34,502 bases of DNA, from contig JASJCJ010000091.1 of the NCBI GenBank assembly GCA_030066045.1, positions 1 through 34,502 on the forward strand, in the 5' to 3' direction. The notes under the pieces were generated by a model, which was not told where the DNA came from, did not search any database, and saw only the letters and a program-made list of their open reading frames with translations. The stretch is from Calothrix sp. MO_167.B12. GTDB taxonomy: Bacteria > Cyanobacteriota > Cyanobacteriia > Cyanobacteriales > Nostocaceae. Shown one piece after another: positions 14,308 through 16,210 of the stretch. Position numbers and translations under genes: made by a program. Position 1 is the first letter of the stretch. Each line of letters begins with the position of its first letter.

Positions 14308-14820
14308 ATGATGAATCCAGGCTTACAGTACCCAATATTTGGTCCCGAAATCCAGTGCCCTCATTGTCGGCAAGTTATTCCGGCATTGACATTAACTGAT
14401 ACTTACTTATGTCCCCGTCATGGCGCATTTGAAGCTCATCCCAAAACAGGGGATTTGATTCATTTACAGTCTGGACGGCATTGGCGTAGGTGGAATGGAG
14501 AATGGTATCGCCAACATACCCACCCCGATGGCATTCGCTTTGAAATTCATGAAGCTTTAGATAAACTTTATACCCAAGGATATCGGGCAACTAAGGTAAT
14601 TATTGCCAGACGTTACCAAGAATTAATGAGTGGTTATTTAGAGAAAAATACTCCTTGGCGTTCCGGACAATCAGAAGCTTCTGGTGCTCGCCTCTATGGT
14701 TTACCAGTGGAGTTTAGCCCTGAGCCTGGGGAGGAACCTTGTTGGGAAGTAATTAATTTTGATTTGGATAAGGAACCTGGTGTGCCAGTACGTTATCCTT
14801 ATTTTCGTCTATTTGAGTAA
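14308..14820 (+). CDS. TIGR02652-like conserved cyanobacterial protein
   Basis: 170 residues. An N-terminal zinc-ribbon-like cluster (C17-P-H-C20 and C35-P-R-H38) is followed by a conserved basic/aromatic body (GRHWRRWNGEWYRQHTHPDG) and the ending PVRYPYFRLFE. I recognise the family as one limited to cyanobacteria; its function is unknown. It starts with two adjacent ATGs; the first is used. It is divergent from the carbonic-anhydrase-like gene over 205 bp, so the promoters of both should lie in 14103-14307. Confidence 0.8.
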   Translation: MMNPGLQYPIFGPEIQCPHCRQVIPALTLTDTYLCPRHGAFEAHPKTGDLIHLQSGRHWRRWNGEWYRQHTHPDGIRFEIHEALDKLYTQGYRATKVIIARRYQELMSGYLEKNTPWRSGQSEASGARLYGLPVEFSPEPGEEPCWEVINFDLDKEPGVPVRYPYFRLFE

Positions 14821-15014
14821 TATTGAGGAGTTAGGAGTGATCCCACAAGGGGGAAGTAATAAGTAAGGGGTAAGGGTTGGTAACTGTTGCTTAAAATCTA
14901 CCATTATCTAGACAAATATTACCGTTTGTCTATATTTGAGCAGCCAAGCTCTTTAGCTGCCAAGGATCTAGTTTTCGGTTAAAATAGGACTAAGTGAGTC
15001 TGTATCTGCTCATA

Positions 15015-15305
15015 TCGCTCTCCCGGCTGTGATGGCTAGTAGGAGACACGCATGGGCTTCATGGTATCGATTCAACTTCGCGACTCAAGTCGTTAGCCGG
15101 TATGAGTTTAACAAAACTCCGCCGGGACGAGTGAGGTTTAATCAACAGTCGTTAACAGCGAGCCTTAGCAATTACTCTACAGGGAAAGTGGAGAAATCCC
15201 GATCTGGACGACCTGTGGAGGTCTGTGAATCAGCTATGACCAGTGTTAAGGAACTTGGTGAAAATCCAAGCTGTAATCCCGAACTAGCCGTTAAGGTCGG
15301 GTGAC
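15015..15305 (+). ncRNA. Candidate structured RNA, HEARO/omega-RNA-like, stand-alone
   Basis: About 290 bp with no credible protein but at least seven local hairpins in one orientation: TCTCC/GGAGA (15019-15046), CGAC-TCAA-GTCG (15081-15092), GAGTTT-AACA-AAACTC (15104-15119) inside CCGG/CCGG (15097-15125), CTCTAC/GTGGAG (15175-15193), GACCT-GTGG-AGGTC (15210-15223), CTTGG/CCAAG (15254-15270) and CCCGA/TCGGG (15278-15301), ending in GTGA (15301-15304). Size, hairpin density, and an end at GTGA recall HEARO RNAs, the omega-RNA guides of IscB/IsrB nucleases, which are frequent in cyanobacteria and often lack an adjacent nuclease gene. The family name is an inference from memory. The strand is the one that gives GTGA at the 3' end. 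Confidence 0.5.
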
Positions 15306-15419
15306 GATGGGTAGCTTTATCCAGTTTTGGGTAGAAAAGTCCATTTTTTAAGTAACGGTAGGTTTTGTCTTCCACTTTTTCCCCTGAATCCTTTTCCTTA
15401 AACCGTGAACAAGAAAAAT

Positions 15420-15470
15420 GTGGTGTATGGGGTGTAGGGTTTAGGGTAATTGGTGGGGCTTGTACCCATC
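15420..15470. repeat. TGTATGGGGTGTAGGGT ... GGGGCTTGTACCC repeat
   Basis: It matches, in inverted orientation and with small changes, the segment at about 13212-13256. Both copies end in GGGCTTGTACCC. Confidence 0.7.
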
Positions 15471-15476
15471 ACTATG

Positions 15477-15640
15477 CATGAAAATGCTTTGTGACTAACT
15501 CCTCAAGGGCGCACGCAATGCGCCCCTACTCCGTGCTTCTGAACTATTTTCAAGCTAGTCCCACTCTGCTCCAAGCCGCGCTTCGCTCGTCTACATGGAC
15601 GTTTGTACACAATCTGGCGATGAAAATACCTCGACTGCGG
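15477..15640 (+). repeat. 160-bp composite dispersed repeat, copy 1
   Basis: It begins ATGAAAATGCTTTGTGACTA, contains the GGGCGCA-CGCAA-TGCGCCC hairpin, then ATTTTCAAGCTAG, GTCTACATGGA, GTTTGTACACAA, and ends GATGAAAATAC. A second, inverted copy covers 22766-22925, and the first 60 bp recur at 11146-11206. The shared order of blocks over the whole length shows one unit, not chance matches. Confidence 0.85.
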
Positions 15641-15712
15641 CTCCCACACCTAAGCTGTCAACCATCAACTAACAACTAACAACTAACAACTATTTTCAAG
15701 CTAGATGGATGA

Positions 15713-16210
15713 ATGAGGTTTAATGAATTATTACAGTCAACTAGTAACTCCAAGCGACTGAATATGCATCACGTTTCCATCCGCACAGCCAATATTTATC
15801 GGGCAATCGCTTTTTACGAACAATTAGGGTTTCAAGTCTGTGAACGCTTCACTACAGGCTATACCCTGGCTTGTTGGATGGAAGGTATGGGGGGCAGAAT
15901 TGAGTTAATCCAAATACCAGAACCAAAACCCGCACCAGATGCATTTGCAGATCCGCACTATGTAGGGTATTATCACTTGTCATTCGATGTTACCGAGCAA
16001 ATATCGGATCTATCCAGCTATTTACATCATCTAAAACAGCTTTTTAGTCAAAAAGCTCGGGAAAACCCCGAAAATTTTCAACCCCTAGTGGTACTCCTAG
16101 AACCCAATCAGCAGCAAATCGGCAACCGAATATACGAGGTGGCATTTATTGCTGATACTGATGGTCTACCTATCGAAATCATTCGGATTTTAACTACCAT
16201 TAACAGTTAA
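15713..16210 (+). CDS. VOC (glyoxalase/dioxygenase-fold) family protein
   Basis: 165 residues with the paired beta-alpha-beta-beta-beta fold: MHHVSIRTANIYRAIAFYEQ then LGFQVCERF at the start, GGRIELIQIPEP in the first module, and YHLSFDVTEQISDL and EVAFIADTDGLPIEI in the second. Possible metal ligands are the His of HHVSIRT, Glu of IELIQ, His of YYHLSF and Glu of PIEII. This matches the metal-binding pattern of glyoxalase I, but the substrate is not known. The 5' 17 codons (MRFNELLQSTSNSKRLN) do not belong to the fold; the ATG at 15764 could be the real start. Confidence 0.82.
   Translation: MRFNELLQSTSNSKRLNMHHVSIRTANIYRAIAFYEQLGFQVCERFTTGYTLACWMEGMGGRIELIQIPEPKPAPDAFADPHYVGYYHLSFDVTEQISDLSSYLHHLKQLFSQKARENPENFQPLVVLLEPNQQQIGNRIYEVAFIADTDGLPIEIIRILTTINS

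Follow-up and report, generated by a model that had tools for sequence, protein, structure and literature searches.

A probable core-deleted IS607-family element with a preserved TnpB omega-RNA in Calothrix sp. MO_167.B12

The window analysed here is a stretch of 34,502 nt of contig JASJCJ010000091.1 from Calothrix sp. MO_167.B12, whose own genome is labelled G000 below. Between a TIGR02652-family gene, present in all 30 genomes searched, among them that of the window, and a VOC gene, the plus strand holds at ~14874–15358 a degenerate left end, a 3′ remnant of tnpB and an intact right end with a TnpB omega-RNA (Table 1); tnpA and most of tnpB, including its catalytic part, are absent. An earlier note on this DNA had placed a structured RNA at 15015–15305 and had seen no protein-coding signal there. 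Both points need revision. The covarying RNA occupies ~15139–15358 within the longer element, and an ORF at 15029–15304(+) is the C terminus of tnpB, its final 46 residues being identical to those of the intact 514-aa TnpB of copy L003 in G002, a genome of the same genus. The GTGA remarked on at the 3′ end of the last stem does exist, but tnpB ends with it: the frame reads GGG TGA, with TGA as the stop codon.

Table 1. Features of the element and its right flank, in window positions.
Feature	Position	Strand	Basis
Degenerate IS607-type left end	14874..14940	+	alignment of six left ends
tnpB 3′ remnant, last ~110 codons, stop TGA 15302–15304	14972..15304	+	match to L003 TnpB, alignment A3
TnpB omega-RNA (reRNA) scaffold and right end, intact	15139..15358	+	identity to L071/C50, covarying structure, model R1
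GG, right boundary, predicted IS607 crossover dinucleotide	15357..15358	+	right ends of 7 copies and a 28-bp tip
Predicted guide segment (flanking host DNA)	15359..15378	+	right-boundary position; 16-mer search; function inferred

The tnpB remnant has lost the N terminus and all three acidic residues of the RuvC site, and small indels are visible by eye. Residues 374–514 of the L003 TnpB can be matched to the window with three TAG and one TAA codon, all of them upstream of 14972. A 27-nt in-frame insertion (15112–15138), absent from all seven aligned homologs, resembles, by eye, an imperfect tandem copy of the adjacent stretch. At the tnpB 3′ end of another copy, L072 (4380–4601), the frame stops early, unlike in the other copies, and the RNA block still agrees with the window at 188 of 220 positions, which suggests that in L072 the constraint on the RNA outlasts the coding frame.

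The search of the same genome for further copies, which the earlier note had advised, was rewarded: one was found on contig C50, at 75% DNA identity. Among 98 further genomes, two hold full-length copies and two hold short matches (L005, L006). Each of these three full-length copies carries the RNA at the 3′ end of a long same-strand ORF, of 522 aa in C50 (L002), 514 aa in G002 (L003/L071) and 496 aa in G033 (L004/L072). The C50 copy is complete, with TnpA, TnpB and RNA, in the same genome as the window. Directly upstream of its tnpB, TnpA scores 224.7 bits against NF033518 (cut-off 110), which marks it as an IS607 serine recombinase. ORFs of 213 and 203 aa similar to TnpA precede tnpB in L072 and L073, and a TnpA C terminus does so in L098/G236_c1; in L071 tnpA is absent. 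The parent element, with a serine-recombinase TnpA beside tnpB, is of the IS607 type. A piece consisting of left end and tnpB start without tnpA is also present in the window's genome: L088 241–534 (G000:C190:20540–20833) matches L071 2864–3158 over 295 bp at 95.9%, and since the two places, G000:C190 and G002, have unrelated flanks, the sequences compared suggest that this tnpA-deleted derivative moved in trans.

The TnpB proteins match TIGR01766 at 35–38 bits, above its cut-off of 32. Their matches to the guided_TnpB model NF040570 are partial and fall below the cut-off (42–54 bits against 100), and the Cas12f models likewise give partial matches. A search of PDB sequences gave no relative of TnpB (two matches, both at E of at least 1.4). 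The top Foldseek matches were CasX, the ISFba1 TnpB (8iaz) and Cas12g, with low TM-scores; the AlphaFold model used, built from three sequences, is poor (pLDDT 60), so we treat these matches as supporting evidence only. The homologs carry a RuvC D-E-D triad (D276 in 33/33, E336 in 32/32 and D406 in 28/32 of those with letters at the position) and read D-x-N-P at RuvC-I in 31 of 33 aligned TnpBs, whilst a CxxC..CxxC zinc finger before RuvC-III is found in none of the 33. Given the TIGR01766 scores above cut-off, we read these zinc-finger-less proteins as a variant TnpB clade. The aligned set comprises L007, L008, L014, L016–L040, L071–L073, L086 and L087, mostly of ~490–550 aa, and 36 of the 217 family genomes, including that of the window, have a match to the clade at E≤1e-10. 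In L008 (G000:C228:9524–10777), a 40% paralog in the window's genome, the third RuvC aspartate is replaced by G (SSGVGAA); it is E in L024 and L039 and S in L037. To judge by these residues, the four proteins are possible nuclease-dead relatives of TnpB.

The strong structure reported for this stretch stands. On the plus strand, 14980–15320 folds at -118 kcal/mol (z -3.66), a value reached by none of 100 shuffles; the minus strand gives z -2.15, with 4 of 100 shuffles as good. The 221-nt core folded alone is not unusually stable, either in the window (z -0.60, 47/200 shuffles as good) or in C50 (z -1.48, 17 shuffles as good). A long-range pairing of ~15020–15045 with 15285–15315 in the single-sequence fold was dropped because its 5′ arm is variable, by eye, in the homologs. 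Comparative evidence comes from eight homologs, for which RNAalifold predicts 56 pairs in an alignment (A4) that begins at 15139; of 442 cells counted in it, 95.9% pair, and the window row keeps the consensus pairs. At 18 of the 56 pairs both partners differ in one or more of the sequences, against a shuffled mean of 8.4 (0/500 shuffles as high), and the covariation score is 0.330, compared with 0.143 for shuffled alignments (0/500) and no more than 0.080 for slid ones. A weaker signal comes from the number of additional pair types (34 against 29.0 shuffled, 15/500 as high).

A covariance model, R1, was built on 15161–15310 and run over the 217 family genomes with stricter filters and 14 candidates scored per genome. 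It matches nine places in six genomes, eight of them its own training sequences; the ninth, in G241 (E 4e-4), lies directly 3′ of a 45%-identical TnpB. A complete tnpB accompanies five of the nine matches (C50, G002, G033, G236_c1, G241) and a truncated or broken one the other four (the window, G236_c2, G236_c3, G237). The structured RNA overlaps the 3′ end of tnpB and reaches the right end of the element, as an omega-RNA (reRNA) does. At gathering scores, no Rfam 15 family matches anywhere in the whole 34.5-kb window, nor at the eight loci with homologs. Rfam includes RAGATH-18; it has no match in the window, in 14850–15450 at E≤10 or in the eight homolog loci.

The left end of the element can be aligned across L071, C50, L014, C190, L072 and the window (there at about 14871–14935), the window copy being 68–71% identical to L071, C50 and L072 and 67% to L014. 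It holds a promoter-like pair, TAGACA-16-TATATT (14909–14936), where the intact copies read TATAAT; a promoter scan of 14800–15720 on both strands gave three candidates against a shuffled mean of 1.3, a signal that is weak alone. At the right end, seven copies finish with GTAACGGT; a tip of 28 bp from G002:C273 finishes with GTAACGGC, after which all diverge. Conservation stops at ..GTAACGG (15358) and the flanks differ within one base; the T at 15359 is common to all seven full right ends, which would allow a boundary one base further on. GG stands at the right boundary in all eight right ends displayed, and the left boundary is a G-run. The tip itself (L099, G002:C273:363–390) is a lone sequence without scaffold, ending in AACGG and identical to the window's right-end tip; our reading, from the letters, is of a possible scar or minimal remnant.

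Since right-end conservation ends at 15358, a guide would begin at ~15359, in host DNA. The proposal that the guide lies upstream of ~15017 puts it on the wrong side, in what is tnpB coding sequence common to the homologs. In the window's genome and G002, the exact 16-mer 15360–15375 occurs here and at one other place, G002:C243:1976–1991, which is the empty insertion site; with one mismatch it has six further places (two in G000, four in G002), and the reversed control has none. An empty site of this kind is the expected target of a TnpB guide.

That site emerged from a comparison of the window with five related loci (L042–L046), as an empty site in a related strain had been suggested as a check. 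L042, the locus from G002, lacks the element; it matches the window at 96.6% over 585 bp left of the insert, at 90% over the 50 bp directly right of it and at 95.9% over 555 bp across the VOC gene. The empty site is not base-precise, the junction differing by ~18 nt of low-complexity sequence, and further right window positions 15410–15745 have no match in L042, whose interval is 89 bp. No match to the element was found at the orthologous place in any of the five relatives, four of which have intergenic DNA too divergent to define a junction. The two ends are present, the genes between them are deleted and the insert is polymorphic, being missing in G002, as is the case for a non-autonomous transposon. 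We are confident that the element is a TnpB/IS607-type remnant, and consider it probable that ~14874–15358 is a core-deleted, non-autonomous IS607-family derivative in a Calothrix-like cyanobacterium. A second copy of the core-deleted form was not found in the 217 family genomes, with at most three candidates scored per genome, and a distant-mode DNA search of phage and plasmid collections gave no match. With a single copy of the deleted form, the mobility of that form is putative; the TnpA of a complete copy would have moved it in trans, and the tnpA-less relative in G000:C190 and G002 fits such movement.

The history of the RNA block is uneven. Positions 15139–15358 are identical to the G002 copy (L071) at 219 of 220 sites and to C50 at 188 of 220, whereas the tnpB remnant at 14987–15110 agrees with L071 at 92 of 123 (Fisher p 2e-14 for the contrast). 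The host flanks differ from G002 by ~4%, which makes the RNA block either more recent than the species split or more constrained. Alleles unique to L071 against five other copies (G237 and gapped columns left out) are shared by the window at one of six sites on the left and six of six on the right (p 0.015). This pattern of sharing, on small numbers, is better explained if an L071-type element recombined with the window copy than by selection alone, and purifying selection as the sole cause of the near-identity is not favoured. Contig C190 of the window's own genome carries an L071-type fragment, the 295-bp piece described above. The default view is of a remnant in decay, its RNA part renewed through recombination with an L071-type copy.

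The principal alternative is that the RNA is a working orphan guide, an omega-RNA that selection preserves and that the C50 TnpB uses in trans, which would give a tnpB-less element RNA-guided maintenance. If the RNA is transcribed, the C50 TnpB could bind its scaffold, and the two together could cut insertion-free alleles as TnpB does with intact elements. The contrast in identity across 15139 would fit this proposal, as would the consensus pairs kept in the window copy, the intact TnpB and TnpA in the same genome and the fact that, beyond its own locus, the guide has a single exact match in two genomes, at the empty G002 site. Against it, four copies with a complete tnpB (L071, C50, L072 and G236_c1) differ from one another by 14–22% in the RNA block, so its sequence is not constrained to such a degree; the allele sharing points to recombination; four of the nine RNA matches sit with a truncated or broken tnpB, as expected of ordinary decay; and the promoter at the left end is degenerate (TATATT). 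We judge the working guide unlikely on this evidence, and active use of the RNA in trans, taken by itself, is possible and on balance doubtful. The same tentative standing applies to the wider picture of a zinc-finger-less cyanobacterial TnpB clade with an omega-RNA family absent from Rfam, together with tnpB-less derivatives whose orphan guide still works and serves the resident TnpB in trans. The earlier idea of an orphan guide RNA without its nuclease is supported in its broad form; the nuclease concerned is TnpB of IS607, not IscB.

The abrupt change in divergence at 15139 might also arise if the contig, which belongs to a draft assembly of 321 contigs, had fused a divergent remnant with an L071-type right end. 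However, the relative with the empty site matches the window at this locus over the 50 bp that follow 15358, so that a chimera would need one switch in and a second switch out, and the C50 copy, 86% identical in the RNA block, was assembled separately; such an artefact is very improbable. Still harder to credit is a host structured RNA (a riboswitch, attenuator or sRNA) unrelated to the transposon: the location between two host genes would suit it, but there is no match at the orthologous place in the five relatives compared, all nine R1 matches accompany tnpB or tnpB remnants, and neither the window nor the eight homolog loci match Rfam at gathering score. Least probable of all, and rejected here, is the HEARO (RF02033) identity, an omega-RNA of IscB or IsrB, that the earlier note proposed from hairpins sharing one orientation with GTGA after the last of them, in what is indeed a HEARO-rich genome: the HEARO model has no match at E≤10 over 14850–15450 whilst finding 33 elsewhere in the genome, 25 of them above cut-off, and the full-length homologs are placed at the tnpB 3′ end, not upstream of iscB or isrB. 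The three matches obtained there at E≤10 are none of them HEARO; a match to RCNMV_5UTR over the left-end hairpin (25.4 bits, gathering score 75) and two snoRNA matches below gathering score were taken as chance.

On the default reading, of a refreshed remnant, a structured intergenic region that had no explanation becomes identifiable as an IS607 deletion derivative with a preserved guide RNA, and R1 supplies a covariance model for an RNA family without a match in Rfam 15. The intact parent in the same genome makes it a testable question whether a TnpB can serve the guide RNAs of its tnpB-less relatives. If an orphan guide did act in trans, non-autonomous elements would share in RNA-guided maintenance, and through recombination among copies the guide scaffold would stay compatible with the resident nuclease.

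Like a HEARO, the window RNA belongs with the guide RNAs of transposon-borne RNA-guided nucleases, but it represents another RNA family and another nuclease. In a HEARO the guide is on the other side than in a TnpB omega-RNA, and stand-alone HEARO copies have been reported. The 33 HEAROs of G000 are spread over many contigs, but the genome has only 10 matches to RRXRR, the IscB N-terminal domain, and stops interrupt two of these. Judged by position, an RRXRR match follows within ~50 nt of 5 HEAROs. The remaining 28 are possibly stand-alone copies, although contig ends or divergent iscB genes could hide some partners.

Omega-RNAs or reRNAs of IS607 TnpBs are already known, including that of ISXfa1 (PMC10711439) and the RAGATH-18-derived reRNA of ISFba1 (PMC11061315). 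By analogy with the AGGAG/GAGGG motifs given in PMC11061315, the C50 TnpB would be predicted to use a G-rich TAM. As far as the parts of those accounts used here describe them, the window element resembles them in an RNA that follows the tnpB 3′ end (overlapping it in the window) and runs to the right end, in a guide taken from the flank and in the serine TnpA upstream in its parent copies; it differs in an RNA of ~220-nt scaffold without an Rfam match, in a clade of TnpBs of ~500 aa that lack CxxC..CxxC and in the deletion of tnpB. Non-autonomous derivatives of TnpB elements are known as well, in the form of the PATEs of Haloquadratum, which are core-deleted IS605/IS1341-type elements (PMC3119063). 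In the portion of that work drawn on here, these too are transposase-free and consist of ends and a C-terminal remnant; they have no inverted repeats, and the window element appears to have none. The window element has IS607 rather than IS605 ends, an intact guide-RNA part supported by covariation, and a single copy. For stand-alone TnpB guides or IS607 MITEs like this element we found no description in the open literature, which does not prove their absence. With the cyanobacterial pro-Fanzors, as set out in the sections of PMC10711439 cited here, the clade shares membership of the cyanobacterial IS607 TnpBs; in contrast to them it has D-x-N-P at RuvC-I (31/33) rather than DPG, no zinc-finger motif, and its glutamate ~70 residues before the third aspartate. 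What sets the system apart from those known is the combination of an RNA family without a match in Rfam and a TnpB clade without a zinc finger.
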